Source: an uncultured Lactobacillus sp.
GTDB lineage: Bacteria; Bacillota; Bacilli; Lactobacillales; Lactobacillaceae
Direction: 5' to 3'
NCBI GenBank assembly: GCA_946477855.1
Contig: CAMKZU010000002.1
Span: 1-64,000 of the forward strand
Length of the DNA: 64,000 nt
Both the position numbers and the translations under genes were made by a program. Each line of letters begins with the position of its first letter. Within the stretch, counting starts at the first letter, position 1. Shown in pieces: positions 3,814-50,059 of the stretch. The notes below the pieces were generated by a model. That model searched no databases. It saw only the letters and a program-made list of their open reading frames with translations, and was not told the origin of the DNA.

Positions 3814-3842
3814 TTTCATAAATAGTTTTAAGAATTAAAAGG

Positions 3843-3882
3843 AGCTCGTTAATCTGTTTGCAAGAGATTGACAAGCTTTTTT
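3843..3882 (+). terminator. Terminator after LysR copy 1
   Basis: Thirteen-base stem (3843-3855 with 3865-3877) with one C.A mismatch and one G.U pair, then six T. Confidence 0.7.
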
Positions 3883-4014
3883 GCTGCTAAAATACAAAAT
3901 ATTTCAAGCATTCCAGTTTGTTATTTTACATTTTAATGTACTTGCCTAAATACCAAATTAACATGCTACTTTAAGAGTGTGCACAAAATATAACTAAAGA
4001 AAGAGTTGGTAAAA

Positions 4015-5502: not shown

Positions 5503-5528
5503 TTTGCTTTTAGAAGGAGAAAGTAAAT

Positions 5529-6725: not shown

Positions 6726-6742
6726 ATAAGTGAATTAAATAA

Positions 6743-6780
6743 ACTAAAGCGTGAAAAATCTCGTTTTTCACGCTTTTAGT
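6743..6780. terminator. Bidirectional terminator between MFS copy 1 and lepA paralogue
   Basis: Thirteen-base stem AAAGCGTGAAAAA (6746-6758) / TTTTTCACGCTTT (6764-6776) with T-rich flanks on both strands, between convergent genes. Confidence 0.88.
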
Positions 6781-6792
6781 TTGCTTTAGTTT

Positions 6793-8607: not shown

Positions 8608-8608
8608 T

Positions 8609-9271
8609 CTATTTAGCTCCTCCCAGTTTTTGTGCTAATCCTTGTAAATAAAATAGCATTAATTGATTGGCTTCTTGTTCAAGGTCGATTTGAAACCCTT
8701 TAAAGTCTACGGGCAATTGATCGTGGTGAAATTCATCCAAGTTCATCATATTCATCAAGCCGCTAATGATGGCACTTTGAATAATGAAAAGGTGACTGGC
8801 CTGCTTATCGTCTAAGATATTAATGCGCTTAGCAATGGCTTGCCCTAATTGATGATTTACCTGATATAATTTTTTGCGACCGAGTAAAGTTTGTTCTTTG
8901 TCGGCGGCTGTTTCTAAAATTGGACCACGCAAAGCGTTAAGACGTAAGAGATCAGGTCTTTCACTAATTAACAAATGATTTTGCTCTAGTAAAAAAGAAG
9001 AAAATGCTGACCAAGTAGTAATATTTTCGGCTGCTTGAAAACGAAGCAGAACGTCTTTTAGATAGTCTTGGTATCCAGAAAGCAGCAGGTACATGAAGAT
9101 GCTTTCTTTAGTTTTGAAATAATTAAACAGCGTTCCTTTGGCTACGCCGGATTCGCGGGCAATGCGGGCCATGGATATTTTGTTAAAATCATTTTTTTGA
9201 AATAATTTGCTGGCAGCCGCCGCAATCAGTTGTTTTTTAGCTTCTTTTTCTTGGGGAGATAAGACATACAT
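8609..9271 (-). CDS. TetR/AcrR-family regulator, cotranscribed with lepA2
   Basis: 220 residues. The N-terminal TetR helix-turn-helix is ISMARIARESGVAKGTLFNYFKTKESIF; the remainder is an alpha-helical ligand/dimer domain. The gene lies immediately upstream of the lepA paralogue and is translationally coupled to it. A perfect AATGACC-AAC-GGTCATT palindrome fills the promoter spacer, which argues for autoregulation. An AAAGGAG site lies 12 nt before the ATG, slightly long. The signal it senses is unknown; the coupling to a ribosome-acting GTPase suggests a stress or antibiotic response, which is inference. Confidence 0.87.
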   Translation of the reverse strand: MYVLSPQEKEAKKQLIAAAASKLFQKNDFNKISMARIARESGVAKGTLFNYFKTKESIFMYLLLSGYQDYLKDVLLRFQAAENITTWSAFSSFLLEQNHLLISERPDLLRLNALRGPILETAADKEQTLLGRKKLYQVNHQLGQAIAKRINILDDKQASHLFIIQSAIISGLMNMMNLDEFHHDQLPVDFKGFQIDLEQEANQLMLFYLQGLAQKLGGAK

Positions 9272-9291
9272 AATTATTTTATACTCCTTTT

Positions 9292-9321
9292 ATTCAACAA
9301 TGACCAACGGTCATTTTACAA
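9292..9321 (-). promoter_or_regulatory. Promoter with TetR-type operator in the spacer
   Basis: Read on the minus strand: TTGTAA (9316-9321), an 18-bp spacer, TTGAAT (9292-9297). The spacer contains a perfect 7-bp inverted repeat AATGACC / GGTCATT (9299-9315). An operator in this position blocks polymerase and is typical of TetR autorepression. Confidence 0.7.
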
Positions 9322-9344
9322 ATAATTACAAATTTTTGCAAGAA

Positions 9345-9371
9345 AAAACCACCTCAAGAGAAGGTGGTTTT
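9345..9371 (-). terminator. Terminator of the asparaginase gene
   Basis: Ten-base stem AAAACCACCT / AGGTGGTTTT, with a run of T on the minus strand. Confidence 0.85.
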
Positions 9372-9380
9372 ACATATAAT

Positions 9381-10349
9381 TTAATTATTAATATATTTCT
9401 TTAATTGTTGTCCTTTAAAGCCAGCACTTAAACCTACTAAAAGCTTAATTCTAGCCTTTTGCCCATTTAGTCCGCGGCAGAAAATGATGCCCATTTTAGC
9501 TAAACTGACACCGCCACCCTGATAATCATAAACTGGTTCTGCGATACCATTAAAACAGCGTGAAACTAGGACAAGGGGAATATTGTTATCAAGCAGTTTT
9601 TGCAATTCCGGCAGTGTTTGCGGGGGCATATTGCCGGCTCCTAAAGCTTCAATCACAATTCCATTAGTAGTCGGTTTATTTAAAGCTTGAAAAATTTCTG
9701 GTCCCATGCCGGCGTATGCTTTAACCAAATAGACATTTGAAACTACATGGTCAATTGGCAAATGCTGCTGTGGATTAATAGTTTGGACATAATTAACGTG
9801 TCCTTCCGAAACAATTCCGATCGGACCAAATGTGGCCGTCCTAAATGTAGCGACATTTGTAGTATGGGTCTTGGTCACATAGCGGGCAGGATGAATCTCA
9901 TCGTTCATGACGACCACGACACCTTTACCAATAGAAGCATCTGAACTGGCAACCATTATTGCAGTTTTGAAATTGTACAGGCCGTCACTGCCAATCTCGT
10001 TTGAAGAACGCATAGCTCCCGTAACTACCACAGGCATTTTGCTGGAGATGGTTAAATCTAAAAATAATGCTGTTTCTTCTAAAGTATCGGTACCGTGGGT
10101 AACAACAGCACCGAAAAAGCCTTCTGCTTCAGCTTGGCGTATCCGTAAAGAAATCTGCAACATACGCGCCGGAGTGATGTGTGGTGAAGGTAAATTGAAA
10201 ATTTCCTCAGTAACTAATTGGACATCATCGTTAACGTTTAAAGATAGATCAGTCAGAGGGTTTTGGCTGTTAGGCTTAATTTTCCCTGTTTCGTCCTCTG
10301 ACATTGAGATGGTGCCACCTGTGTGTAAAATTAAAATCTTTTTACTCAT
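9381..10349 (-). CDS. ansA: L-asparaginase (type I-like)
   Basis: Hydrolyses asparagine to aspartate and ammonia. The 322-residue product has both catalytic threonine motifs of the asparaginase family: ILHTGGTIS near residue 8-16 and VVTHGTDTLEETA near residue 85. No signal peptide is present, so it is cytosolic. Length fits the 320-330 residue bacterial enzymes. It is a single gene with its own terminator, pointing the same way as the TetR-lepA2 pair but separated from it. Confidence 0.93.
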   Translation of the reverse strand: MSKKILILHTGGTISMSEDETGKIKPNSQNPLTDLSLNVNDDVQLVTEEIFNLPSPHITPARMLQISLRIRQAEAEGFFGAVVTHGTDTLEETALFLDLTISSKMPVVVTGAMRSSNEIGSDGLYNFKTAIMVASSDASIGKGVVVVMNDEIHPARYVTKTHTTNVATFRTATFGPIGIVSEGHVNYVQTINPQQHLPIDHVVSNVYLVKAYAGMGPEIFQALNKPTTNGIVIEALGAGNMPPQTLPELQKLLDNNIPLVLVSRCFNGIAEPVYDYQGGGVSLAKMGIIFCRGLNGQKARIKLLVGLSAGFKGQQLKKYINN

Positions 10350-10443
10350 ATTAGTTTACTCCTGTTTTTTATTTGATTGTTCTTCTAAAGGTTAGCATAA
10401 TTTGCAGGGTGCAGATACCCTTAAAGGCTTTCGGTTTTGGAAC

Positions 10444-10469
10444 AAAAAAGCTGGTTAAAAAGACCAGCT
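10444..10469 (-). terminator. Terminator of the cupin-CMD operon
   Basis: Seven-base stem AGCTGGT (10449-10455) / ACCAGCT (10463-10469), with six T on the minus strand. Confidence 0.75.
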
Positions 10470-10486
10470 GTCTTAACTTAAAAACT

Positions 10487-10804
10487 TTAATCCTTAAAGA
10501 CTTCTTGTGCTATACCGAACGCAGACCATGCTTTTGGCCAACCGCAATAAAAAGCAAGGTGGGTAATTAATTCAACTATTTCATCTTTAGTAATGCCGTT
10601 TTTCTTGCCGATAACCATATGTGACTTGAGCTGGGGAAAAGCCCCTTGTGCCATTAAGGCAGCACAAGTAATTAAACTACGGTCATGTGCAGATAGTTTG
10701 TCTTCTCTTGACCAAACTTCACCAAATAAAACATCATCATTTAATTCTGCAAATTTAGGTGCAAAATCACCTAGTTTATCTCTACCAGCAGTCTGTTTTT
10801 TCAT
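10487..10804 (-). CDS. Carboxymuconolactone decarboxylase family protein
   Basis: 105 residues, the standard size for the short CMD/AhpD-like family. It contains the alpha-helical core HDRSLITCAALMAQGAFPQLKSH and the conserved C-terminal HLAFYCGWPKAWSAF. It has only one Cys in each region and lacks the CxxC of true AhpD, so a peroxidase role is not shown. It is translated from a GGAGG site inside the end of the upstream cupin reading frame (TAA, two bases, ATG), so the two genes form an operon. CMD/cupin pairs are common in lactobacilli, often beside aldo-keto reductases under MerR regulators; their substrate is not established. Confidence 0.85.
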   Translation of the reverse strand: MKKQTAGRDKLGDFAPKFAELNDDVLFGEVWSREDKLSAHDRSLITCAALMAQGAFPQLKSHMVIGKKNGITKDEIVELITHLAFYCGWPKAWSAFGIAQEVFKD

Positions 10805-10806
10805 TT

Positions 10807-11220
10807 TTAGTCCTCCAGCTTCTCATATTCTTCATCTGTAACAGGTTCCAACCATTTAGGCATTCCCGCAGTAATAGCTATATGTGCAAACTAACTGTTC
10901 TTGGTAGCGCCGTGCCAATGTTTGACGCTGTCATGAACTACGACGACATCTCCTGGGTGCAGTTTGCGTGCTGGCTTACCTTCTTCTTGATACCAGCCTA
11001 CACCGGCAGTAGCCAGTAAAATTTGAAAGCCACCGATATGCTGATGCCAGTTGTTGCGACAACCGGGTTCAAAACTGACATTTGAAACGCTGACATTAAT
11101 ATTAGGATCACTGACTAAACTCTGCAAATAGCTTTGACCTTTAAAATATTTTTGATAAGCAGTATTTTTGGCACCTAAAGCAAAAATACCATCTTGCACA
11201 TCACTTTTATGATCGTCCAT
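10807..11220 (-). pseudogene. Cupin-domain protein interrupted by an in-frame amber codon
   Basis: The frame from ATG 11220 encodes a cupin: NNWHQHIGGFQILLATAGVGWYQEEG, then the second motif LHPGDVVVVHDSVKHWHG. It stops at TAG (10891-10893) after 109 residues. The same frame then continues without interruption for 27 sense codons (FAHIAITAGMPKWLEPVTDEEYEKLED) to TAA at 10807-10809, two bases before the CMD start. In the family a Trp normally sits at this place (HWHG...W-F-HI), so a TGG-to-TAG change is the simplest reading. Both metal-binding cupin motifs lie before the stop, so the short product could still fold. Suppression or a sequencing error are alternatives. Confidence 0.85.
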
Positions 11221-11255
11221 TTTTTTAACTCCTTTATATTTGATTTAATAAGATT

Positions 11256-11286
11256 ACTTTAATCCTTAACGTGAACTTTAAGTCAA
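11256..11286 (-). promoter_or_regulatory. Cupin-CMD operon promoter with MerR-type 19-bp spacer
   Basis: On the minus strand: TTGACT (11281-11286), a 19-bp spacer, TAAAGT (11256-11261). The spacer carries the dyad CTTAA-N8-TTAAG. An overlong 19-bp spacer with an internal dyad is the hallmark of promoters activated by MerR-family regulators. No merR gene is nearby in this window. Confidence 0.65.
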
Positions 11287-11338
11287 GTTGTTTTAACAGA
11301 TGAAGTCAATGAATCTTATTAATAATAACTATTGTTTT

Positions 11339-11367
11339 TTGAATAGTATATATTGGAAAAATATAAT
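11339..11367 (+). promoter_or_regulatory. Promoter of the 601-residue flavoprotein gene
   Basis: TTGAAT (11339-11344), 17-bp spacer, TATAAT (11362-11367). Confidence 0.65.
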
Positions 11368-11418
11368 GTGATAAAATTAATTTGATAAATGAAAGCGATT
11401 TATACAAAGGAGATTTAT

Positions 11419-13224
11419 ATGATTTATCATAAAGATTTTGCATGGGATGCAAATTATGATGTTGTTGTTTTAGGATTTGGCGGTGCTGGTGCCACTGCTG
11501 CTCGGTTTGCGGCTGATCATGACGCTAAAGTGCTACTGGTTGATGCAGCTCCTGAAGGGCACGAAGGTGGTAATACCCGGTATTCTGCCCAATTAATTGG
11601 TACGGGTAATGACTTTAATGAGCTGAAAAAGTATTATCAGAAACTAACGGCGCCAATGGAACTTGACGAAGAGATGATTGATACTTATGTTGATGGGATG
11701 GTGCACATTCCTGAATACGTTTCTAAATATTTGGGTGTTAAACCAAATAGTGCTAAGGAATATGCCCCTGACAAAAGTTATGCTTTCAGGGAATTCCCGG
11801 AATTTCCAGGTTCAGAGTCCTACGATTTTACCACTGTCACTAAACATTGGTTTGATGCTTCCTTATGGCAGATTTTAAAAGAGCAAGTAGTGAGACGGCA
11901 AGACAAAATAGATGTTTTGTACAGCACACCTGCAGAAGAACTAATTCAAGATCCGGAAACTAAAAAGATTTACGGCGTAGTGATTAAGCGTGACGGTAAG
12001 CTGCTCAAAGTTCAGGCTAAAAATGGTGTTGTCATGACTACCGGTGGTTTTGAAAATAATCAAAGAATGATTGAAGACTTTATTGGCGCCAAAAGACTGG
12101 CACCTTTAGGCACCCTTTACAACAAAGGTGATGGTCTGAGAATGGCCCTGGAAGCTGGCGCTGATTTTTGGCATTTACATAATTATGAATCTTTAGGTCT
12201 GCTTCATGGTATGGCTTTTGCGGTACCAGCAGGACAACGCGGTCGCTTAATGTTAGGGCCTCAAAATGAAGCTGTTTCTAGCGGTAGTGCCTTTGTTGTA
12301 GGTGATGACGGTACCAGATACTTTAATGAAGCAGAAGAAAACCGCCACGGCCATATCAAGAATCATGGTCAATGGAAAGTGCCGCTAAATCAAGAGCACC
12401 CATATTTGATTTTTGATGAAACTAAAAAGCATGAATTAGATAGCGATAAAATTATTGGCGATTACAAACCATACACAGAAAATGTTATCAAAGCTGACTC
12501 TGTTTCCGAATTAGCCGAGAAAATTGGTGTTGAACCGGCAGTATTGTCTGATACCCTCAATCGTTTCAATCAAGCATGTCAAAAGCAAGATGATCCCGAA
12601 TTTAGAAGAGATCCAGCAACTTTACGTGCATTTACTGGTAACACAATTTATGCTGTCAGACTAGAACAAACTATGCTCAATACGCAAGGCGGACCTAGAA
12701 GAAATAAGAATGCCGAAATTTTGGATACCAGAGGCAAAGCCATCCCTAACCTTTATTCTGCTGGTGAACTTGGCGGTATCTGTGCTAACCAATATCAAGG
12801 CGGCAATAACTTGGCAGAATGTTTGATTTGGGGCAAGATTGCTGGAGAAAATGCGGCTAAACTAAAGGTTGATGAAGCAACCGATGCAGCAAGCGGTGCT
12901 ACTATGCATGAAAAGCATTTAACTTCAGATCTTAAACATGAAACCTATGAAACCGGGACAAACCAATATATTGGTAAATCAACTAAAGGTATGGGTGATG
13001 AAATAGTTGTCCGGGTAACTGTTGATGAGCAAAAGAACTTGAAGAATATTGAAGTTTTGAAACAAGCTGAGTCGGATGACTATGGCTTGAAAGCTATCAA
13101 GACTTTACCTGCCAAAATGGTTCAGGAAAATACCGTTGACGTGGATGCAGTCAGTGGTGCTTCAAGCTCGTCTCGTGGTCTCAAAGACGCTGTTAGAGAT
13201 GCTTTAAGTAAAATTGCTAAGTAG
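11419..13224 (+). CDS. FAD/FMN flavoprotein reductase with two flavinylation motifs
   Basis: 601 residues. Residues about 10-485 form a FAD_binding_2 domain (VVVLGFGGAGATAARFAADHDAKVLLVD at the start; NLYSAGELGG near its end). Residues about 510-600 form an FMN_bind domain with an ApbE-type flavinylation motif DAVSGAS (576-582). A second motif, DAASGAT (489-495), lies in the linker. FMN_bind domains carry FMN in phosphoester linkage on the last Ser/Thr and relay electrons to the FAD domain. Where fumarate reductases have RLGGN, this protein has YQGGN, so fumarate is doubtful and another enoate-like acceptor is likelier. No signal peptide, so cytosolic. ATG 11419 has AAAGGAG at the right distance; the in-frame ATG at 11389 has none. 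Confidence 0.86.
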   Translation: MIYHKDFAWDANYDVVVLGFGGAGATAARFAADHDAKVLLVDAAPEGHEGGNTRYSAQLIGTGNDFNELKKYYQKLTAPMELDEEMIDTYVDGMVHIPEYVSKYLGVKPNSAKEYAPDKSYAFREFPEFPGSESYDFTTVTKHWFDASLWQILKEQVVRRQDKIDVLYSTPAEELIQDPETKKIYGVVIKRDGKLLKVQAKNGVVMTTGGFENNQRMIEDFIGAKRLAPLGTLYNKGDGLRMALEAGADFWHLHNYESLGLLHGMAFAVPAGQRGRLMLGPQNEAVSSGSAFVVGDDGTRYFNEAEENRHGHIKNHGQWKVPLNQEHPYLIFDETKKHELDSDKIIGDYKPYTENVIKADSVSELAEKIGVEPAVLSDTLNRFNQACQKQDDPEFRRDPATLRAFTGNTIYAVRLEQTMLNTQGGPRRNKNAEILDTRGKAIPNLYSAGELGGICANQYQGGNNLAECLIWGKIAGENAAKLKVDEATDAASGATMHEKHLTSDLKHETYETGTNQYIGKSTKGMGDEIVVRVTVDEQKNLKNIEVLKQAESDDYGLKAIKTLPAKMVQENTVDVDAVSGASSSSRGLKDAVRDALSKIAK

Positions 13225-13237
13225 ATTATTATTTATA

Positions 13238-13268
13238 AAAAGGGTCATTTTAATTAAATGGCTCTTTT
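13238..13268 (+). terminator. Terminator after the 601-residue flavoprotein
   Basis: Thirteen-base stem with two G.U pairs (13238-13250 with 13256-13268), ending in TTTT. Confidence 0.75.
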
Positions 13269-13374
13269 GTATACACTAAAACAAAATATATAGGATTTAA
13301 ATGCTATTTTTATATTAACTGTTTTTTAGTATAATATACATAGTAACAATTACTACTTTTGGTGAGGTAATAAA

Positions 13375-14280
13375 ATGAATTTTACTCAATTACGCTGTTT
13401 TATCAAGGCTATAGATAATTCCAGTTTTACTATTGCAGCTGAGCGCTTGAACTTTTCTCAGTCCGCGGTTTCTAAAAATATTAAGGATCTTGAGAATACT
13501 ATTGGGGTCACTTTAATTAACCGCGCGCATCATCGTATTTCGTTAACCAATGCTGGTAAACACTTCTATCATGTTGCACGCAATGTTGTGGATGACATGG
13601 ATTATACAGTTGCTTATCTGCAGAGCCAGAAAAATGATCCTGAAACTCTTTTGCGAATAGGTGTTTGTGATACACCTTTGGAACAAAAAATTTTGCCAAT
13701 CTTTTTAAGAAAATTGAGAGAGTCTGGCAGTAACCTTAATGTGCAGTTTATTTTTGTACTTAACAATTCTATTGGAGAACTGCTTAATCATCATGTAGAC
13801 TTGTGCGCTATTGCCCGGGACGATGTTAATGTAGTAGCTGACGTAAAGTTTAAACCGCTGATTAAAGGGCAGTTTGTGCTAGCTTGCCCTAAAGGTTCGC
13901 CGTTAGCTGACAAAAAGTTAATTTCTTTAAAAGATCTCAAAGATACCAATATCTTTTTATTGGACCCCAATAGCTCCTTAAATGTCCAGATGAGGTATCA
14001 GGACATTCTGATTAATAATATGGGAATGGATCACATTAAATTTGTGCAAGATTTTTTAGCAATGGATATTTATGTTAAAGCCGGTTGGGGTTATGGTGTA
14101 TTACCTAATTTCATTGTTGATGGCAGTGCAAAAGAAGTTACGTACATTCCAATTGATTATCATGATATTTCACCTTATGGCATTGCTTATATGGAGTCAT
14201 TTACCAATGAATCAGTGTTAAAAAAGGTTGTTAGCATTTTAAGAGAAACAATCAAAGAGTTTGCTCCAGATAAAAATTAA
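13375..14280 (+). CDS. LysR-family transcriptional regulator (module copy 2)
   Basis: 301 residues, paralogue of the regulator at 2926. It has the same opening MNFTQLRCF and helix-turn-helix FSQSAVSKNIKDLE, and the same ending pattern (SPYGIAYM). A TATAAT lies about 40 nt upstream and a GGTGAGG site precedes the ATG. It stands before a flavoprotein and an MFS gene, exactly as copy 1 does, and most likely regulates the longer downstream group of flavoproteins. The effector is unknown. Confidence 0.88.
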   Translation: MNFTQLRCFIKAIDNSSFTIAAERLNFSQSAVSKNIKDLENTIGVTLINRAHHRISLTNAGKHFYHVARNVVDDMDYTVAYLQSQKNDPETLLRIGVCDTPLEQKILPIFLRKLRESGSNLNVQFIFVLNNSIGELLNHHVDLCAIARDDVNVVADVKFKPLIKGQFVLACPKGSPLADKKLISLKDLKDTNIFLLDPNSSLNVQMRYQDILINNMGMDHIKFVQDFLAMDIYVKAGWGYGVLPNFIVDGSAKEVTYIPIDYHDISPYGIAYMESFTNESVLKKVVSILRETIKEFAPDKN

Positions 14281-14307
14281 TTTTATCAATTAAAATTATT
14301 GTTATTT

Positions 14308-14357
14308 AAAAATACTTGTAGTAAAGGCGACATTGCTAATATTGCAAGTATTTTTTG
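14308..14357 (+). terminator. Terminator after LysR copy 2
   Basis: Eleven-base stem AAAAATACTTG / CAAGTATTTTT around a 26-nt loop, ending in a T run. Confidence 0.65.
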
Positions 14358-14491
14358 CTGCATATTTATATTGAAGATGTTGTTATGTATTCCATTTGGT
14401 TATCCTCAATTCTTAAATGCGTGCAGAGATTTGCCCGTTTCATAGTATTATGAAAGCGGTTAAAGGTTTTATTTAAAAGTGAGGGATAAAA

Positions 14492-15976
14492 ATGGAAAAT
14501 ACGTATGATGTAATTATCGCTGGTGCCAGCAACTCCGGTGGTATGGCAGCATGTGCAGCGGCAGAAAAGGGAGCTAAAGTCCTGTTAATTGATAAACAGG
14601 GCAGTTCACAATTTCTGTACCGGTCTTTCTTTGCGGCTCTTGATAGTAATGCGCAAAGAAGGGCTGGAATAAAGGTTGATAAAGCTAAATTAATGAACTT
14701 CTTGACCTTATTTTTCCAAGATAATGTCGATGAGCGTCTGCTTTGGACTTGGGCAAACCACGCAGATGAAACAGCTAACTGGCTGGAAGACAATATCTTG
14801 AAACCAAATGGTGGTGTCTTAAAACCACAAAAGGATGCTCACTATGAAACGGTTGTTAATACCGCTTTTAATACTGAACTTGCAATTGCTACACCTGATA
14901 ATGGCTGGGCTCATTATGGTGACTGGGTAATTGATAAAGTCAAAGAATTAGGGGTTACCCTGAAATACAATACTAAACTTGAAGAACTGGTCACAGATGA
15001 TAGTGGTGCAGTGACCGGTGTGATTACCAGTGATCGCTCTAGTGGCGAAAAAACAGAATATAAAGCTAATAAGGGTGTCATTATTTGTACCGGTGGCTAC
15101 GGCGGTAACGTTGAGCTAATGAAGAAATGGGATCCGCTCGGCTACAAGAAGAATGTTTATTCAGATGGTCCGCGTGATGATGGTTCCGGTATTCTGGCAG
15201 GACTTAAAGTGGGGGCTGCCCGTGACGAAGAACCAGCTGAAATCATTTTTGACCGTGGTGCTGTTCCGGTTGGCACCAATGCTGAAGAACATTATCAAAT
15301 TGACTTTAAGGGCCCCGGTTATTTCTGGATGGGTGCCTACCCAATGCTTAAAGTTAACTTAAATGGTGAACGTTTTGGCAACGAGAGTGTTCCTTATCAA
15401 TTTGATATTAACGCTATGGCTAAACAGCCTGGCTATTTGGAAGCACAAATTTGGTCAGAAGATACTATGGATCACTTGGCACAATTTAGGACTCAAGGTT
15501 GCTCTCGTTTGGGCTGGCCTGGTATTTACAATACTGAACAAAACAAGGCTGAAATTCAACGCAGAATTGATGATGGCATGGTGCAAAAAGCAGATACCAT
15601 TGAAGAATTAGCTGAAAAACTAAATTTGCCAAAAGATAATTTAGTTAACAGTGTTAAACGTTATAACGAAATGTGTGCCACAGGCGTTGATACTGATTTC
15701 GGTAAAGAAAAGTTCAGATTGTTCCCAGTTGATAAGCCGCCATATTACGGTGTTATTATGGGCGGACGACTTCTGGCAACGCTTGATGGGTTACGCATTA
15801 ATCCTAAGATGGAAGTTATTGACAAGAAGGGTCAGCCAATTCCTCATTTGTATGCGGCTGGTAACGCCAGTGGCGGGTTCTTCTGGGGTAGTTACCCAGA
15901 TCGTGTTCCAGGTCTCACTTGCAGTCACGCGCAAACATTTGGTCGTTTAGCGGGACAAAACGCTGCTGAAAATTAG
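14492..15976 (+). CDS. FAD-dependent oxidoreductase, FAD_binding_2 (module copy 2)
   Basis: 494 residues, aligned almost end to end with the protein at 4015. It has the same altered dinucleotide motif GASNSGG and the same end block GNASGGFFWGSYPDRVPG. The gene uses visibly more G/C-ending codons than copy 1, so the two copies are not a recent duplication. It has a GAGGG site, no signal peptide and no FMN_bind domain. It is the first gene of a run of four same-strand genes (flavoprotein, MFS, two more flavoproteins) with gaps of 20-63 nt. The adjacent 621-residue flavoprotein, which has an FMN_bind domain, could supply electrons to it; this is inference. Confidence 0.85.
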   Translation: MENTYDVIIAGASNSGGMAACAAAEKGAKVLLIDKQGSSQFLYRSFFAALDSNAQRRAGIKVDKAKLMNFLTLFFQDNVDERLLWTWANHADETANWLEDNILKPNGGVLKPQKDAHYETVVNTAFNTELAIATPDNGWAHYGDWVIDKVKELGVTLKYNTKLEELVTDDSGAVTGVITSDRSSGEKTEYKANKGVIICTGGYGGNVELMKKWDPLGYKKNVYSDGPRDDGSGILAGLKVGAARDEEPAEIIFDRGAVPVGTNAEEHYQIDFKGPGYFWMGAYPMLKVNLNGERFGNESVPYQFDINAMAKQPGYLEAQIWSEDTMDHLAQFRTQGCSRLGWPGIYNTEQNKAEIQRRIDDGMVQKADTIEELAEKLNLPKDNLVNSVKRYNEMCATGVDTDFGKEKFRLFPVDKPPYYGVIMGGRLLATLDGLRINPKMEVIDKKGQPIPHLYAAGNASGGFFWGSYPDRVPGLTCSHAQTFGRLAGQNAAEN

Positions 15977-16005
15977 TTTTTATTTAAAAGGAGCTTTATA
16001 AAATT

Positions 16006-17223
16006 ATGGATCAAAAACAGTTACCTAAACTTTCAAGTTATAGGTGGGTAATTTTAGCCATTATCTCTTTGATGGATGCCACTAGCAGTTATATTCAATA
16101 TCAGATTTCTGCTTTGGCAACCCAAGTCATGCCGGCTTTACATATTGCACCGGCGCAATTTCAGAGTTTGCTCATGGCGCCAATGTTTATTGCTGTTTTT
16201 CTGAGCATTCCTGCTGGCTCACTTGGAGACAAATATGGTGCTAAGAAAATTGTCAGTGTTGGTTGCTTTGTTTCAATAATAGGCGCTTATGGTCGTTTAT
16301 TCGCTACTAATTTTGCTACGATGATGATTATGCTATTGCTTTTTGGTGTTTACATGGCTCTTTTGAACGCCAACGCACTGAAAATTTTTGGGTCTTGGTT
16401 TAAACAAGATACTAAATTGGCTATGGGTGTATTTTTCGCATCAGCAAGTATTGGTATCATGCTAACACAATTAACTTCTCACATGTTCCCTAGTGTTAAA
16501 GCAGCTTACATTTTCTCATCTACATTATTATTAATCTTAACTGTTTGCTGGATTTTGTTTGTTAAAGAAAAGCCTGAAGGTGAAGAAATTCCGCCAGCAC
16601 AGGCTCAACAAGCTAAACCTGAATCAGCAATGAAATACTTTAAAGTTGTAGCTCGTAGTGGGAAAACTTGGTTAGTTGGTCTTGCTGGTGGTTTAGGTGT
16701 TGCTGCCAGTGAAAGTTTTTCAGGCATTTTGCCTCAAGCATTTGCCGCTCGTGGTATGACACCTGCTGCAGGTAGTATGATAGCTGCTATTGCTACTATT
16801 GGTAGCTTGTGTGGTTCTTTATTTGGACCAGGTCTTATCAATAAGGCTAAAAAAGCTAAGCCAGTGATGATTGTCTTTACTTTGATTGGTGGTGGCTTAA
16901 TGGCACTTACCTGGTATATACCTTTAGGATTGCCGCTAACTATTGCTTTAATTCTTGGTGGTTTGTTCGGTGCTATGACCGGCCCAATTATGAACTCAAT
17001 GCCAATTCAGTTCCCTGAAGTTGGTCCTAAATATGCCGGTAGTGCCGGAGGACTTGTAAGTACAGTTTCACTGCTTCTTTCGTCATGTCTTCCAACTGTA
17101 ATTGGTTTAATTGCAGGTAGAAACTATGAAATGACCTTTATTATTCAAGGCATATTTTTCGCAATCACCGCTATTATCATTGGAATTTTACCAGACGCAA
17201 ACGGTGGTCGCCCACGCAAATAA
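16006..17223 (+). CDS. Major facilitator superfamily transporter (module copy 2)
   Basis: 405 residues, about 12 membrane helices, paralogue of the transporter at 5529 (shared opening LPKLSSYRWVILAI versus MPRLSSYRWVILAI, same loop AGSLGDKYGAKKIV). The central cytosolic loop is slightly longer and Gln/Ala-rich (near residues 195-210). It lies 29 nt after the flavoprotein and 19 nt before the next flavoprotein, so it is very probably in the same operon and carries the substrate or product of those enzymes. Substrate unknown. Confidence 0.86.
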   Translation: MDQKQLPKLSSYRWVILAIISLMDATSSYIQYQISALATQVMPALHIAPAQFQSLLMAPMFIAVFLSIPAGSLGDKYGAKKIVSVGCFVSIIGAYGRLFATNFATMMIMLLLFGVYMALLNANALKIFGSWFKQDTKLAMGVFFASASIGIMLTQLTSHMFPSVKAAYIFSSTLLLILTVCWILFVKEKPEGEEIPPAQAQQAKPESAMKYFKVVARSGKTWLVGLAGGLGVAASESFSGILPQAFAARGMTPAAGSMIAAIATIGSLCGSLFGPGLINKAKKAKPVMIVFTLIGGGLMALTWYIPLGLPLTIALILGGLFGAMTGPIMNSMPIQFPEVGPKYAGSAGGLVSTVSLLLSSCLPTVIGLIAGRNYEMTFIIQGIFFAITAIIIGILPDANGGRPRK

Positions 17224-17242
17224 ATGAAAGGAATTATTAGAT

Positions 17243-19108
17243 ATGGCAAAAAAGATAACTACAAATCCAGGTAAGTTTACCGGCTCAGGTCAAGGTAAAG
17301 AGAGCCGGATTAACCTTGAAGTTGAGGTTGACACGGATAAAATCGTTAACGTTAAACCACTAGATAAATATGCGCCCGACAGCTTAGCTGATAACGCATT
17401 TAAGAAAATGGCGCAAAAGATTGTTGACCAACAATCAGTTGATGTTGATGTGGTTTCTGGTGCATCTGAAACTTCACGCGGTATCATTGAAGGAGTCAAA
17501 GAGGCTCTGAATAAAGCAGGAGTTGATTTCAACGCTCTGAAAGAAAATGGTGGACAAACCGCTGGCAAGAAAGAAGAAACAATCAATGTTGATGTTGCTG
17601 TAGTCGGTGCCGGTGGTGCCGGTGTAGCAGCCGCTTTAGCTGCTCGTCAACATGGCGCAGAGGTGGCTTTATTTGAAAAGACCATTTCACCACTCGGTGC
17701 AAGTACTTTTGCCGGTGGTATGTTTGCCGGAGATAGTCAACAACAAAAAGACCAAGATGCAGTGGTTTCCAAGAAGTGGCTTTATGACGAATATATGGAT
17801 GCTTCTCAAGGTTACATGAATTCAATTTTGGTTCGCCGCATTATTGACGAATCAGGAAAGACTGTTGATTGGTTAAATGAAAACGGCGCTATTATGAAAT
17901 TAGTTGACGCTGGTACTGGCGGCAGTTACGATCACATTGGCATGCCGGCTACCCTTCATGGTTATCAAGAAGGCGGCACTAAGGCAGTAACTAAATTGAT
18001 TGAAAAATTCAAGTCAATCGGTGGCAAGATGTACTTCGGTTTTGCTGGTAAAAAATTACTGCAAGATGACGCAGGCAAAGTTACTGGCTTAATTGCCGAA
18101 GGTGATGACAAATCACTACATGTTAATGCTAAAAAAGTTGTCATTGCTACTGGTGGTTTTGGCGGCAACCCCGAAATGCGTAAAAAATATCTGGGCGACG
18201 TCAACACACAAGGACAAGTTTTACAAAACACTGGTGACGGTTTGAACATGGCCTGGGATGCTGGTACTGCTCACCATATCAATGGTTCAACTCACTACTT
18301 CTGGCAAACTTTCAGTAATAAAGACGTCGGTGACATGGCAAAACTTGTTGGTCCAAACTGGATGCCTGTTAACGCTTTGTCAAACTTCCCTAACTTGCGC
18401 GTAAATAATCGCGGTCAACGTTATGCTAGTGAAACGCACGCCTTAGACTTTGCCGTACACGGTGCTGAATTATCAGAACAGCCGCAACAAACAGAGTTTG
18501 TCATCTTAGATCAGGCAATGCTGGATAAGATCAAAGAAGGTGGAACTGTCGCAATCGAAGATCACTATGGCAAGTGGAAGAACCACCGTGAATTTTACAT
18601 GGAATTTAATTTCCCAACTGATACTGCTGAAAACATTAAGCATGAACACGAAAAGACAGATTTTACTGCACTTTTAAATAAGCTTGCATCAACCAATGTG
18701 GTATTTATTGCAGATACAATTGCTGAATTAGCTGAAAAAATGGGTGTAGACAAATCTAATTTGCAAAAATCAGTTGAGCAATACAATGATGCTAAGAAGA
18801 AAGGTGAAGATGATCTCTTCTTCTCAGATACCAAGAGAATGATACCGGTAGAGCAGGGTCCATTTTATGCCGTTAAGTTTATTGCCCGCAACCTCGGTAC
18901 CCTTGGCGGAGCAACAATTGATGAAAAAATGCACGCATTAGCACCAAATGGTGAACCTGTACCTAACCTATACGTAGCAGGTGCAGATGCTTCTGGCATG
19001 TATGGCAAGGCCTACGTCGATTTTGAAGGTGGTACTTTAGGCTTTGCTTATATTTCGGGTAGACTGGCCGGAATTGATGCGGCTGAAACTGCTAAGGCTG
19101 GTAAATAG
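17243..19108 (+). CDS. FMN_bind + FAD_binding_2 flavoprotein reductase
   Basis: 621 residues. The N-terminal FMN_bind domain (about 10-95) has flavinylation motif DVVSGAS at residues 69-75, with Ser75 the expected FMN-carrying residue. An Ala/Lys linker leads to a FAD_binding_2 domain from about residue 115 (VDVAVVGAGGAGVAAALAARQHG). This is the architecture of urocanate/fumarate-type reductases and of the HcrB-type 2-enoate reductases of lactobacilli. The C-terminal block reads YGKAYVDFEGGTLGFAYISGRLAG, not the RLGGN of fumarate reductase, so the substrate is unassigned. No signal peptide. Covalent FMN attachment needs a cytosolic ApbE, which is not encoded in this window. Confidence 0.87.
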   Translation: MAKKITTNPGKFTGSGQGKESRINLEVEVDTDKIVNVKPLDKYAPDSLADNAFKKMAQKIVDQQSVDVDVVSGASETSRGIIEGVKEALNKAGVDFNALKENGGQTAGKKEETINVDVAVVGAGGAGVAAALAARQHGAEVALFEKTISPLGASTFAGGMFAGDSQQQKDQDAVVSKKWLYDEYMDASQGYMNSILVRRIIDESGKTVDWLNENGAIMKLVDAGTGGSYDHIGMPATLHGYQEGGTKAVTKLIEKFKSIGGKMYFGFAGKKLLQDDAGKVTGLIAEGDDKSLHVNAKKVVIATGGFGGNPEMRKKYLGDVNTQGQVLQNTGDGLNMAWDAGTAHHINGSTHYFWQTFSNKDVGDMAKLVGPNWMPVNALSNFPNLRVNNRGQRYASETHALDFAVHGAELSEQPQQTEFVILDQAMLDKIKEGGTVAIEDHYGKWKNHREFYMEFNFPTDTAENIKHEHEKTDFTALLNKLASTNVVFIADTIAELAEKMGVDKSNLQKSVEQYNDAKKKGEDDLFFSDTKRMIPVEQGPFYAVKFIARNLGTLGGATIDEKMHALAPNGEPVPNLYVAGADASGMYGKAYVDFEGGTLGFAYISGRLAGIDAAETAKAGK

Positions 19109-19171
19109 AATCGATAAGTTCAAGACTATGTAAGAAAAATTTCAGCATAGTTTTAATTTGAGGAATAGATT

Positions 19172-20617
19172 ATGACACAAGAAAAATATGATGTAGTTAT
19201 TGTGGGAGCAGGTCTTGCCGGCTTTGCCGCTGCAGATGAAGCTGTTGACAATAACCTAAAGACTTTGCTGGTTGAGAAAGGTAAAACGACTGGCGGAACT
19301 GGCAATTATGTAGAAGGTGTTTTTGCCGCCGACTCTGAATTGCAAAAAAAGGATAATGCCACACTTAATAAGGAAGAATTACTTAAAGAGGAATTAACTT
19401 ATTCGCATTACAAGGCTGACGGCAAAATGTGGCAAAAGTATATTGCAAATGCTGGTAAAAATGTTTCTTGGCTTGAGGACCATGGCGCTGAAATTGGAAT
19501 GGTTGCCAATTTGGGTTCTGGTGCTAGAACTTGGCATTTGTTTAAAGGCAGGGGGCATGATGCTATTCATAATGGCCTGGAACCGTATGCTAAAAAGAAG
19601 GGCATAACCATTGCCACATTAACGAGAGTGACTGACTTAAAGAAAAATGCAGACGGCACTTATGATGTTACTTTAACTGACGTCATTGAAAAAGTGACGA
19701 AAGTGGTTAATGCCAAAAACGTTGTTTTGGCAACAGGTGGATACTTAAATGATCAAAAATTATTAGAAAATACACCACACCAAAATCCTGATAACATTAT
19801 CCCAGTTAACTCTGGTAAAAATACTGGAGATGGTTTGAGATTAGCCTGGAAGTTAGGTGCTAAAAAGTACTTTACGGGAATGGCCATGATGTTTGGCGGA
19901 CAATTGAAAGATAAGACTGTCCCTTCATTCAAGCTCTGGGGCACAGCTATCTGGAGTTCAGTTTGTGATCAACCACAAATGTGGGTCAATGAACTCGGTG
20001 AGCGTTTTGTCGATGAAAGCGCAGCTGTAGTGAACTGGGCAAACGAAGGCAATTCAATGAACCGTCAAGACCGGGTCTTCTGCATCTTTAGCCAAAAGAT
20101 TTTGGATGACTTTACTGATAAGTCATATCCAAGGTCAATGAAACCTTTTGTTCCAGAAGACAGATACCCAACTTTGCGTGATGATATTGCCAAAGCTGAA
20201 AAAGAAGGTCGTCAATACTTGCACAAGGCAGCAACGCTGGAAGAACTCGCTCAAGAAATTGAAACTCCTAACTTAGTTGCGTATGTCAAACATTATAATG
20301 AAATGGCTGCTAATGGCGAAGATACTGATTTCCATAAGCCGGCTAAATACATGTTGCCAGTTGATGGTGATGGTCCATTTTACGCAATTGAATTGGGCGT
20401 TGGGGCCTATACTACCGGTGACGGCCTGCGGGTTAACACTAATAATGAAGTATTGGATACTAAAGGTAGACCAATTAAGGGCTTGTATGCTATCGGTGGC
20501 GATGGTTCAGCCGTTTTATATGGTGACACCTATGGTGTTAATATTCCTGGCACGCATGCAGGGTACTGTATCTTTTCAGGACGCAATGCAATTAAAACAA
20601 TTGCAGCTAATAAATAG
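19172..20617 (+). CDS. FAD-dependent oxidoreductase, FAD_binding_2
   Basis: 481 residues. The FAD-binding fold starts at residue 6 with a canonical VVIVGAGLAGFAAADEA motif. The end block reads LYAIGGDGSAVLYGDTYGVNIPGTHAGYCIFSGRNA. There is no FMN_bind domain and no signal peptide. The active-site end differs from all three other flavoprotein types here, so it probably acts on a different substrate. It is the last gene of the group; a small hairpin (about 19125-19151) lies in the 63-nt gap before it and might attenuate or protect transcripts. Confidence 0.84.
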   Translation: MTQEKYDVVIVGAGLAGFAAADEAVDNNLKTLLVEKGKTTGGTGNYVEGVFAADSELQKKDNATLNKEELLKEELTYSHYKADGKMWQKYIANAGKNVSWLEDHGAEIGMVANLGSGARTWHLFKGRGHDAIHNGLEPYAKKKGITIATLTRVTDLKKNADGTYDVTLTDVIEKVTKVVNAKNVVLATGGYLNDQKLLENTPHQNPDNIIPVNSGKNTGDGLRLAWKLGAKKYFTGMAMMFGGQLKDKTVPSFKLWGTAIWSSVCDQPQMWVNELGERFVDESAAVVNWANEGNSMNRQDRVFCIFSQKILDDFTDKSYPRSMKPFVPEDRYPTLRDDIAKAEKEGRQYLHKAATLEELAQEIETPNLVAYVKHYNEMAANGEDTDFHKPAKYMLPVDGDGPFYAIELGVGAYTTGDGLRVNTNNEVLDTKGRPIKGLYAIGGDGSAVLYGDTYGVNIPGTHAGYCIFSGRNAIKTIAANK

Positions 20618-35241: not shown

Positions 35242-36471
35242 ATGACATCATATTATAACGGTTTTCCCCAAAGCGATCGTGATGAAGCAATCGATATGAT
35301 TAATCTCGATGAACTCGAGGAACGTGCAAAGAAGGTCATGCCGGAAGGGGCATATTATTATATTGCTTCTGGTTCTGAAAATGAATGGACATGGCGTAAT
35401 AACATCTCTGCCTTTAATCATTTTCAAATTGTCCCACGTGCTTTGACTAATATGGATCACCCACAACTTGATACTGAGTTTATGGGTATGAAGTTAAAAA
35501 CACCAGTGATGATTTCACCAATCGCTTGTCACGGCATCGCTCACAAGGATGCGGAGATTGCCACTCAGAAGGGTGCTGCTGCAGCAGGTGCATTATTCTC
35601 ATCAAGTACATACGCTAACAAGAGTGTTGAGGATATAGCAGCTGCTGCACCAGATGCTCCGCGTTTCTTCCAGCTTTACCTTAGTAAAGACTGGGGCTTT
35701 AACAAGATGGTTTTTGATGCAGTTAAAAAAGCTGGCTACAAGGGAATTTTCCTTACTGTAGACGCTTTGGTATCAGGCTTTCGTGAAGCTAACCTTAGAA
35801 CTAAGTTTGCTTACCCTGTTCCACTAGACTTCTTTACTCGTTATCAAGGAGCAAAGGGTGAAGGTCAAACTGTTGCTCAAATGTATGCTTCTTCTGCACA
35901 AAAGATCGGTCCAGAGGACATTAAACGCATTAAGGAAATGTCTGGTTTGCCAGTATTTGTTAAAGGTGTTGTTTGTGCTGAAGATGCCTACTTGGCTATG
36001 GGTGCCGGTGCTGATGGTATTTATGTAACTAACCATGGTGGTCGTGAAGTTGACTGTGGTCCTGCAACAATTGATATGTTGCCTGAAATTGCTAAAGCTG
36101 TTAACCACCGTGTACCAATCGTCTTTGATTCCGGTGTTCGTCGTGGTTCTCATGTCTTTAAGGCATTAGCTCTTGGTGCCGATATGGTCGGTATTGGTCG
36201 TCCATATCTCTATGGTTTAGCACTAGGTGGTGCTAAAGGTGTTCAATCAGTTATTGAACAACTCAATCAAGAATTATTAATTGATATGCAATTAACCGGC
36301 TGCAAGACAATTGAAGATGTCAAGCACGCTAAGATTACTCATATCAATTACACTGCTGACAACTTGAAGTCAAATACTGATCCTTCAAGAGTTAAGCCTT
36401 ATCCAGTAACTGCTGAAAATCAATTAAAAGAAAATGATTCAGACGCTGTCACTGGTGCTTCACAAGCTTAA
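35242..36471 (+). CDS. FMN-dependent L-lactate oxidase-type enzyme with C-terminal flavinylation tag
   Basis: 409 residues of the alpha-hydroxy-acid oxidase family, which oxidises L-lactate to pyruvate and reduces O2 to H2O2. Visible landmarks are YYIASGSENEWT (substrate Tyr), QLYLSKDWGFN, TVDALVSGFREANLR and the catalytic TNHGGREVD (His/Arg). GVRRGSHVFKALALGADMVGIGRPYLY binds the FMN phosphate. The family normally ends soon after the barrel. Here a polar tail runs on and ends in DAVTGAS-QA (401-409), a match to the ApbE motif D-x-x-[ST]-[GS]-A-[ST] that receives covalent FMN. It is monocistronic, with a cre-like site in its promoter and a terminator after it. Confidence 0.87.
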   Translation: MTSYYNGFPQSDRDEAIDMINLDELEERAKKVMPEGAYYYIASGSENEWTWRNNISAFNHFQIVPRALTNMDHPQLDTEFMGMKLKTPVMISPIACHGIAHKDAEIATQKGAAAAGALFSSSTYANKSVEDIAAAAPDAPRFFQLYLSKDWGFNKMVFDAVKKAGYKGIFLTVDALVSGFREANLRTKFAYPVPLDFFTRYQGAKGEGQTVAQMYASSAQKIGPEDIKRIKEMSGLPVFVKGVVCAEDAYLAMGAGADGIYVTNHGGREVDCGPATIDMLPEIAKAVNHRVPIVFDSGVRRGSHVFKALALGADMVGIGRPYLYGLALGGAKGVQSVIEQLNQELLIDMQLTGCKTIEDVKHAKITHINYTADNLKSNTDPSRVKPYPVTAENQLKENDSDAVTGASQA

Positions 36472-47554: not shown

Positions 47555-49132
47555 TTAATGATGAGTTGCGCTTGATAAAGCATCAAGACTATGATCTTCA
47601 CCTTTAACTGCCATACCTTCAACGTCCATACCTGGGCAGAAGACTTCATCTTCTGGAACGCCTCTTTCTTCAGCAAAAGCCTTAGTCAGAGTTTCCATGT
47701 CCATCAAATGATATTTCTTGTCTGGGTGTTTTGGATCAACAATTTGAATTTGCGCCATCATACCGGCATCTTCGTGCTCGATAATGTGGCAGTGGTACAT
47801 GAAGACACCAGTGTTTTGGAAGTAAACCTTTATGCGAACTGTTTCTTGAGGTGCTACTTCGATAGTGTCCTTGTAAACTCCTCTTTCGTTTGGATATGGT
47901 TCTTTACCGTTACGTGATACAACCAGGAAGTGGGCACCGTGAGTATGGAATGGGTGCAACATACCGTTAACTTTATCGTTAGTGTTAGTTACGTCCCAGT
48001 ATTCAGCATTCATCAATTCCTGCTTCATATCAATTCTTTCCATTGAGAACAACTTACCGTTGATCATGTTGTGGTTATCCATAGTAACATGAGGAACTGG
48101 TGAGTTAGGGTTAACAACTGGATCATATGGTTTGAATAAAGTATCAGGAATTACGCTGTCATCTTTTTCATAACTGTGAATTCTGAATTCAACCAGCTTG
48201 AAGTCGTCAGTGTAAAGGTTGACAACATCGCCTTCTTTATAATTGCTGAAATCAACAACTACTTGTTGACGTTCACCTGGTCCAATTAAGACTTTAGTCA
48301 ATTTAACTGGGTGCTCCAAGAATGAGTCGTCACCGGCGATTTGGGTCATTACCAAGTCATCACTAAAGTGCAGGCGCCATTCACGACGGTTAGAACCACC
48401 TAAGAAGAGCAAACGTACTTTTTGAGTAGTGACATCAACGTATGGACGAACAACACCATTGATGATTGGAGTGTCGCCAAAGATACCCATTGCGTTGTAG
48501 TCTGCCTTATAGTCAAATTGGTTGTCTTCGTGGAAAATACGGTCTTGCAAAATAATTGGGAACTCATCCTTGCCGTAAGTCTTAGGAATTGGCAGTTTAG
48601 CTTCGTTAGCATCAGTAATAACAACGCCCATAGCTAGTCCCATCCAAACTTGCATGGCAGTTGATGGACATGGGTGAGCGTGCAGCCAAGTCAAAGCTGC
48701 TGGTTGTTTAACTATGAAGTCAATGTGCTTTTCTTCACCTGGGTAAACCGGTGAGTGACAAGCACCATCGTTACCAGGACCTGAAAGTTCCATACCGTGC
48801 CAGTGGTAAGTAGTCAATTCTGGTAAGCTGTTCTTCAAAGTTACGTGAACATGTTGACCTCTGGTTAAAACCATGGTCTTACCAAGAACTGGGAAGTTGT
48901 AGCCCCAAGTATGAGTCTTTTTACCTGGCAAAAATTGGAAGTCACCTTCTTGGGAATCAATTGTGTACCAAACATCATTGTTTTCTTGTTTATCAGGCTC
49001 TAATACTGGTGGAACAATTAAAGGTTGAGCTTCAACACCTTCAGGAATGTGAAGATCCTTGTATCCCATTTCGTGATTTTTATCAAAATCTTCGGAATTA
49101 TAGAAATAATCTGTGTAAACTTTATCTGACAT
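47555..49132 (-). CDS. Cytosolic multicopper oxidase with C-terminal flavinylation tag
   Basis: 525 residues, three cupredoxin domains. Copper motifs are HWHG (110-113), WLHAHP, HPFHTHGAHF and HCHIIEHEDAGMM (His447-Cys448-His449, axial Met), i.e. a complete T1 plus trinuclear centre. Such enzymes oxidise phenols, Cu(I) or other donors and reduce O2 to water. There is no signal peptide, unlike most CotA/CueO relatives. After the last cupredoxin domain an acidic tail of about 50 residues ends DALSSAT-HH (517-525). This matches the ApbE FMN-attachment motif, with Thr523 as acceptor. Single gene; a cre-like site overlaps its promoter. Confidence 0.88.
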   Translation of the reverse strand: MSDKVYTDYFYNSEDFDKNHEMGYKDLHIPEGVEAQPLIVPPVLEPDKQENNDVWYTIDSQEGDFQFLPGKKTHTWGYNFPVLGKTMVLTRGQHVHVTLKNSLPELTTYHWHGMELSGPGNDGACHSPVYPGEEKHIDFIVKQPAALTWLHAHPCPSTAMQVWMGLAMGVVITDANEAKLPIPKTYGKDEFPIILQDRIFHEDNQFDYKADYNAMGIFGDTPIINGVVRPYVDVTTQKVRLLFLGGSNRREWRLHFSDDLVMTQIAGDDSFLEHPVKLTKVLIGPGERQQVVVDFSNYKEGDVVNLYTDDFKLVEFRIHSYEKDDSVIPDTLFKPYDPVVNPNSPVPHVTMDNHNMINGKLFSMERIDMKQELMNAEYWDVTNTNDKVNGMLHPFHTHGAHFLVVSRNGKEPYPNERGVYKDTIEVAPQETVRIKVYFQNTGVFMYHCHIIEHEDAGMMAQIQIVDPKHPDKKYHLMDMETLTKAFAEERGVPEDEVFCPGMDVEGMAVKGEDHSLDALSSATHH

Positions 49133-49492: not shown

Positions 49493-50059
49493 TTGAAAAT
49501 TAACTTAACAGATTTAACTACAAAGATAGAACAAAAAGATTATATTGAGGATTTAGAAACTGTAAAATATGCTGATATCAGTAAGTATAAAGCTAAAGTG
49601 CATGAATTGGCAGCAAAATTAGTTAAAGAAACTGCGGCCGCTCTTAAACATAATTCATTAAGTCATGTAGCTGTTGAAGTAACGGGGCAAAGGCCGCTTA
49701 CTTTTGCATTAGAAAGCAATATTATTAATTTGCCCTATGCCAATTATAAAAAGATCGCCAACTTTTTTGAAGAGCAGAAAGAATACTCTGTTAACATCTA
49801 TTTTGAAACTCAATCGGAATATTTAAATGCGTCAGGTTTTAGAATTGATCAAATCGCAACAGAAACTGAAATTAAGCAAAAAGAAGATACCGTAATTGCT
49901 GAATTGACAGCAGCTATGCAGGAAAAAATTAGACAGGTTCGTGAATACCAAAAGCCGGCACCAGCCGCTAAAAAGAAAACAGTAACTAAAAAAAGAGCAA
50001 CGACTAAAACGAGTTCAAATAAAACCAAAAAGGCAGCTAAAACTAAAGGTACTAACTAA
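49493..50059 (+). CDS. Conserved hypothetical protein with basic Lys/Ala/Thr-rich tail
   Basis: 188 residues, no signal peptide or membrane helix. The first 150 residues look like a mixed alpha/beta domain (KAKVHELAAKLVKETAAALK; TFALESNIINLPYANY). The last 35 residues are almost only Lys, Ala, Thr, Arg and Pro, like histone-H1-like or nucleic-acid-binding tails. The start is TTG 49493 with AAGGG upstream; there is no ATG start in a suitable place. I do not recognise the family; nucleic-acid binding is a guess from the tail. Confidence 0.55.
   Translation: MKINLTDLTTKIEQKDYIEDLETVKYADISKYKAKVHELAAKLVKETAAALKHNSLSHVAVEVTGQRPLTFALESNIINLPYANYKKIANFFEEQKEYSVNIYFETQSEYLNASGFRIDQIATETEIKQKEDTVIAELTAAMQEKIRQVREYQKPAPAAKKKTVTKKRATTKTSSNKTKKAAKTKGTN

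Follow-up and report, generated by a model that had tools for sequence, protein, structure and literature searches.

Does a multicopper oxidase (MCO) of Lactobacillus carry FMN covalently attached near its C-terminus, and what would a flavin do on a copper enzyme? The question comes from a 64,000-nucleotide stretch of DNA from an uncultured Lactobacillus sp. (contig CAMKZU010000002.1; hereafter the window), in which a minus-strand open reading frame at 47555-49132 encodes an MCO of 525 amino acids. A sequence-only reading had noted that this protein ends in a motif of the type flavinylated by ApbE, as does a lactate oxidase in the window. It had proposed a modular covalent-FMN system in which the tethered FMN feeds electrons to the T1 copper.

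We found that the protein is a three-domain multicopper oxidase of the laccase/CueO type, as judged from its Pfam domains, fold and ligand residues. Cu-oxidase_2 and Cu-oxidase_3 scored above the Pfam cut-off, and Cu-oxidase scored below it (18.8 versus 21 bits). Foldseek with an AlphaFold2 model of the protein (mean pLDDT 78) placed laccases on top, those of Pediococcus being closest (9rcm, 9rc5 and 6xj0; 55-57% identity) and CueO lower (~30% identity). Among named strains, L. melliventris ESL0393 has the most similar MCO (99.8%). Twelve residues were invariant in an alignment of 24 sequences (H110, H112, H151, H153, H393, H396, H398, H447, C448, H449, H453 and M458), and we take these to be the family's ligands for the T1 and trinuclear copper. 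Those in the third domain (HPFHTH ... HCHIIEHEDAGM, residues 393-458) are encoded at 47759-47956 on the minus strand. By inspection, the N-terminus (MSDKVYTDYFYNSEDFDKNHEMG) has no hydrophobic signal.

The C-terminal stretch of the product reads ...KGEDHSLDALSSATHH, and positions 47555-47584 are exactly the nine final codons and the stop. The tag, DALSSATHH (residues 517-525; 47558-47584, minus strand), was read from the open reading frame as D517-A-L-S-S-A-T523-H-H, just as the sequence-only reading had it. It leaves exactly two residues behind the motif, as does the lactate oxidase tag DAVTGASQA. The predicted FMN acceptor, placed by the ApbE motif, is Thr523 (codon at 47564-47566, minus strand). 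The claim that every required residue is present holds for the Asp, the Ala and the Thr acceptor and needs qualifying at position 5, where the MCO has Ser instead of the Gly of the strict motif; the published ApbE consensus is D-x-x-[ST]-G-A-[ST] (PMC12052999). The same review reports that in Klebsiella a change of Gly to Ala at position 5 cuts labelling to half. The linker, described earlier as acidic, is so only mildly. Residues 498-525 (47558-47641, minus strand) had pLDDT below 50 in the AlphaFold2 model, so the tail is predicted to be flexible. With E-values of up to 1 allowed, PF04205 (FMN_bind) did not match the MCO; the two have the short tag alone in common.

We found that the tag is conserved throughout the Lactobacillus MCOs. 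An MCO match was present in 41 of 75 Lactobacillus genomes; the match in G063, a fragment of 54 bases, was left out. MCO loci were sorted by whether their identity to the window protein was above or below 65%, and the Lactobacillus set of 64 loci (24 + 40) yielded 40 distinct proteins. One gene (L126, genome G011) has an in-frame stop, and the sequence after the stop was used alone. All 40 proteins end in D-x-x-[ST]-[GSA]-A-[ST], followed by no more than 1 to 4 further residues and, in 36, by exactly two. Conservation in orthologues, on which the sequence-only reading had staked its proposal, is thus complete in this set. The motif Asp and the Ala preceding the acceptor were each present in 40/40, 31 proteins had Ser as the acceptor and 9 had Thr, and position 5 was Gly (the strict motif) in 29, Ser in 9 and Ala in 2. 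Three of the proteins have two relaxed motifs within their last 70 residues. The stretch between core and tag varies in length and letters. Codons at the fixed tag residues differ synonymously while the residues are retained.

The motif was absent from the last 70 residues of all MCOs sampled from other genera (0/59 distinct proteins from 62 loci), most of which end in WMPGM, WMPGC or a Met-rich stretch. Of these loci, 52 come from 21 genera of the family (by labels; one apparently Lactiplantibacillus) and were chosen among the matches listed for 262 genomes of the family that had one to the MCO; the other 10 were chosen from a separate list of matches. L033, titled uncultured Lactobacillus, was counted with the other genera because of its 55% identity and Lactiplantibacillus-like end. 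Two loci were excluded from the motif count: L116, which has an early stop and aligned to residue 302, and L037, from a gammaproteobacterium (33%), which fell below the E-value cut. In a FastTree phylogeny of 99 MCO cores, the 40 tagged proteins formed one clade with support of 1.0. This is consistent with one gain in the genus, and the data fit a tag that was gained once in Lactobacillus and retained since.

Might the tag nevertheless be a chance match? We compared the motif with several controls. Of 413 distinct proteins encoded in the window and in loci L003-L036, 18 MCOs and one lactate oxidase, that of the window, had the C-terminal motif. The remaining 394, with the untagged MCOs of L026-L036 among them, all lacked it. 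When the motif was altered in six ways (reversed; N, E or K in place of D; V or L in place of A), the count was 0/413 each time. Shuffling of the tails led to an expectation of 0.027 matches among the 40 orthologues, versus 40 observed. Genome-wide, a strict DNA pattern exceeded its reversed control in three Lactobacillus genomes (16, 33 and 38 versus 2, 5 and 6) and in three more (13, 18 and 19 versus 2, 4 and 2), for 137 versus 21 over the six. Counting against the reading, the same pattern was little above control both in 12 genomes of the family with no ApbE match (157 versus 127) and in five ApbE-bearing genomes outside Lactobacillus (115 versus 89).

The pattern that covers the window tag did not stand out. 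Counts of this Ser-type DNA pattern and its reverse were 17 and 21 in the window's own genome, 56 and 65 in a second and 52 and 49 in a third, which is chance level. We therefore rejected the single 7-mer as evidence, and the case rests on the orthologues. The comparison with chance frequency that the sequence-only reading had called for came out in its favor for the orthologue set and the strict pattern, and against it for the Ser-type pattern. The Ser-type counts by themselves suit a chance match in the MCO. However, the orthologue count against the shuffles, the synonymous codon changes at retained residues, the 394 other proteins lacking the motif and the empty altered-motif controls all argue against one, and we rejected it as extremely improbable.

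A conserved tail need not be a flavinylated tail. It could bind metal through His and Met, or be a docking or turnover signal that resembles the ApbE motif. HH closes many of the Lactobacillus MCO tails, several of which have additional His residues, and Met-rich tails are frequent in the orthologues of other genera. However, the terminal His pair varies (EH, QK, HR, RH, HHC, QHN), whereas the Asp and Ala of the motif do not and the acceptor is invariably Ser or Thr. In addition, similar tags without HH end the lactate oxidase (QA), pyruvate oxidase (EH, AH, RH) and PAS_10 proteins. We consider a tail without flavin improbable.

Flavinylation would require a transferase in the same compartment, and we found a candidate. 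The window's own genome encodes two ApbEs. One (L001) has a lipoprotein-like start; its neighbour, likewise lipoprotein-like, has two SGAT sites. The other (L002 1453-2379; G000:C20:8271-9197) has 309 residues, matches PF02424 at 8.9e-69, aligns with the solved ApbE 7esa at 8.8e-60 and has no signal by inspection. Signals being absent by inspection from both, this ApbE and the MCO are predicted to share the cytosol. The gene lies in a row with genes for an FMN_red protein (L002 18-566) and, by inspection, a phosphatase-like protein. ApbEs of this signal-less type (at least 56% identity) were found in 72 of 75 Lactobacillus genomes and in all 60 that were at least 90% complete.

The signal-less ApbE keeps the HxxDPxTG-type motif, as HHLIDPRTG. 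Canonical ApbEs have an Asp and a Thr that we take to be the Mg site; at these places the signal-less ApbE has Glu and Cys, as found in 30/30 fetched relatives. Six ApbEs from other genera whose genes adjoin those for PAS or GlpO were compared: four had the Glu, and in two the motif was not readable. Glu and Cys at the presumed Mg site count against the proposal and are possibly a mark of the signal-less subfamily. ApbE also occurs in genomes with an untagged MCO (e.g., G141 and G169) and in Lactobacillus genomes with no MCO, so its link to the MCO tag is not one to one.

Several other proteins carry similar tags. The window's lactate oxidase, an FMN_dh protein of 409 amino acids (35242-36471, plus strand; tag at 36442-36468), belongs to a family that was tagged in 6/6 Lactobacillus loci and 0/24 others among the best 30 loci. 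Two fumarate-reductase-like proteins encoded on the plus strand of the window have Pfam FAD_binding_2 and FMN_bind domains. In one (11389-13224) the FMN_bind domain is C-terminal (DAVSGAS) and the linker holds an extra motif, DAASGAT; in the other (17243-19108) it is N-terminal (DVVSGAS). These two are among five fumarate-reductase-like flavoprotein genes that cluster at 2926-20617 with those for two LysR-type regulators and two transporters, assigned partly by inspection.

Pyruvate oxidase had two tags in all five Lactobacillus loci among the best 30. Five tagged loci came from three other genera, and 20 of the 30 were untagged. The two tags are C-terminal and follow a very acidic linker in the pyruvate-oxidase-like TPP enzymes of L240 (1961-3781) and L254. 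The window's own genome had no pyruvate oxidase match. PAS_10 proteins mostly have two to four tags. Among the best 30 PAS_10 loci, five of six from Lactobacillus had three tags; in the sixth (L296, G014) the frame is broken. Of the 24 from elsewhere, 23 were tagged (L300 was not). The PAS_10 protein of the window's own genome (G000:C5:55369-56133; L291, also in L211) has DATTGAT, DAQTGAS and DTATGAS in its last 46 residues. GlpO had an internal tag in four of its best 30 loci and none in 26. Genomes G050 and G033 also encode a tagged protein of the OYE family (L219) and fumarate-reductase-like proteins, named by inspection, with tags at their C-termini (L198, L206, L215 and L244). A 69-residue frame in G033 (L255 5410-5619) with a nitronate-monooxygenase-like start ends in DALTGASASSSD and is, by inspection, possibly a truncated gene.

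We found that the PAS_10 tags go together with ApbE. Across 151 genomes of the family, PAS_10 occurred solely with an ApbE match: ApbE was present in 51/51 genomes with PAS_10, versus 27/100 without (Fisher p 1.9e-20, with both kinds of ApbE counted and shared ancestry not removed). In 18 genomes a PAS_10 gene and apbE are same-strand neighbours within 2 kb of each other; three such pairs (G149, G173 and G175) depend on weak PAS matches of 26-30% identity.

Four kinds of gene row around apbE were read directly, with some names assigned by inspection. One (L379 6390-9952; G178:C29) encodes a PAS protein with five tags, ApbE, a PAS protein with three tags and an FMN_dh protein, and is an apparent cytosolic flavinylation operon. 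Another encodes pyruvate oxidase, ApbE and PAS (L380 and L381). A third encodes a GlpK-like protein, tagged GlpO and ApbE (L382 2285-5157 and L383 2574-5369); here GlpO, with its internal DVVSGAS, is followed by a signal-less apbE after gaps of 206 and 78 bases by match places. The fourth encodes a fumarate-reductase-like protein, ApbE, an FMN_red protein and an FMN_red/PAS fusion with two tags (L384). Against the reading, the pyruvate oxidases and the FMN_dh protein beside apbE (G178, G107 and G194) are themselves untagged. These rows tie repeats of the C-terminal motif to signal-less ApbEs independently of the MCO.

A precedent comes from Lactococcus. In PMC11334425, C-terminal tags of FMN_red proteins were flavinylated upon co-expression with their ApbE, and changes of Ser/Thr to Ala showed that the Ser/Thr is needed. 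Together, the conserved tag, the signal-less ApbE, the similar tags on other proteins, the tags beside apbE and this precedent make it very likely that the MCO is flavinylated by ApbE. The modular covalent-FMN system proposed earlier is, as a tagging system, well supported by the conserved ApbE-type tag, by the signal-less ApbE in the genome and by similar tags on several folds; the Ser-type pattern, at chance by itself, adds nothing to it. The accompanying model of electron flow is plausible.

The best reading, to which we assign a probability of roughly 0.6, is that electrons from the tethered FMN feed the T1 copper of the MCO. A cytosolic laccase-type oxidase would have become a client of the cytosolic ApbE of Lactobacillus, which would attach FMN to the last Thr or Ser of the tag (Thr523 in the window MCO). 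The flexible tail would then swing like an arm, and NAD(P)H:flavin reductases of the cytosol, or else other tagged flavoproteins, would reduce the FMN that it bears. The FMN would pass single electrons to the T1 copper, and the trinuclear cluster would reduce O2 to water. That a reduced flavin should hand electrons to copper is reasonable. The MCO would belong to a set of tagged redox proteins in the cytosol that can trade electrons via exposed flavins, with lactate oxidase, pyruvate oxidase, PAS_10 proteins, the OYE family and fumarate reductases as its proposed partners.

The flavin might serve another end. It could reduce Cu(II) or Fe(III) beside the MCO, giving a cuprous or ferrous oxidase a metal reductase of its own, or merely dock the MCO to flavoprotein partners. 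Laccases and CueO, the closest folds, are linked to metal oxidation, most tails in other genera are Met-rich, as expected of copper-handling tails, and the evidence for the tag is the same as for electron delivery to the T1 copper. However, the surroundings of the gene do not point to copper. A CopY-type box (TACANNTGTA) had 0 matches in the window, upon which copper regulation there was rejected, and no other copper gene was recognized near the MCO, where neighbours are partly annotated. We regard a role in metal reduction or docking as possible and rather unlikely.

Among the 18 MCO loci listed, with neighbours again partly annotated, no operon link to a reductase gene or apbE was seen, so the reductant for the preferred T1 copper route is not readable from gene order. 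A divergently read neighbour like that at 49493-50059 of the window is present in 12 of the 18; the MCO of L018 lies outside the range covered by the comparison. In Lactiplantibacillus fabifermentans (L026 7596-11057), an untagged MCO adjoins genes that, by their first letters and inspection, resemble riboflavin-biosynthesis genes.

A wider and more tentative proposal is that the tagged proteins form a soluble, membrane-free electron-transfer chain in the cytosol. FMN-tagged H2O2-forming enzymes (perhaps lactate, pyruvate and glycerophosphate oxidases and flavin reductases) would pass electrons, partly via the multi-tag PAS proteins, to the MCO as a water-forming terminal oxidase, or to flavinylated fumarate reductases when O2 is absent. 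Similar tags on several oxygen-using Lactobacillus enzymes hint at an intracellular flavin wiring that is undescribed. If the reading is right, a flavinylated MCO would be a new combination of cofactors, in which copper receives electrons from a tethered flavin. ApbE flavinylation has been studied mostly outside the cytosol; a set of tagged cytosolic oxidases would bring it into the aerobic metabolism of lactic acid bacteria, with a bearing on their O2 handling and H2O2 output.

ApbE tagging itself is known; new here are a copper oxidase and several cytosolic oxidases as predicted targets. No flavinylated multicopper oxidase was found in the open-access literature as judged by titles and the starts of abstracts; two of the papers (PMC8951191 and PMC11375781) contain "multicopper oxidase" as well as a term for flavinylation. 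In PMC12052999, "multicopper" occurs in a reference title only, and PMC8238504 sets cytosolic flavinylation aside. The PAS_10 proteins recall LjPAS of Lactobacillus johnsonii, which, in experiments with proteins made in E. coli, slows assembly of the H2O2-forming NADH:FMN reductase FRedA/B (PMC4500961). LjPAS, too, is a PAS protein tied to an FMN reductase, and in other lactic acid bacteria it is fused to one, as is the PAS_10 protein beside ApbE in L384; we liken the two by domain. A term search of the main text of PMC4500961 found no "ApbE," "covalent" or "copper."

The MCO has the fold and family of the laccases of Pediococcus and other lactic acid bacteria (9rcm, 6xj0, 6xiz and 9f1t; 45-59% identity in the top rows). 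Unlike these, it is tagged: the tag is absent from the 62 non-Lactobacillus MCO loci (59 distinct proteins) and from the solved Pediococcus chains, for which this is read from alignments that end near query residue 503. The Lactococcus FMN_red proteins described in PMC11334425 are similar: their C-terminal extension is unstructured and bears one or two motifs, apbE is nearby, and the host is likewise one of the Firmicutes. They differ in having a flavin site of their own where the FMN can dock, whereas the MCO has copper cofactors and no known flavin site. According to PMC12052999, a seven-residue C-terminal tag suffices, this length being the minimum, and labelling is best at the N- or C-terminus. 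In Klebsiella, as the same review describes, a signal-less cytosolic ApbE flavinylates a cytosolic redox enzyme, a soluble fumarate reductase, much as we propose for Lactobacillus. The Klebsiella target is a flavoenzyme; here the predicted target is a copper oxidase.
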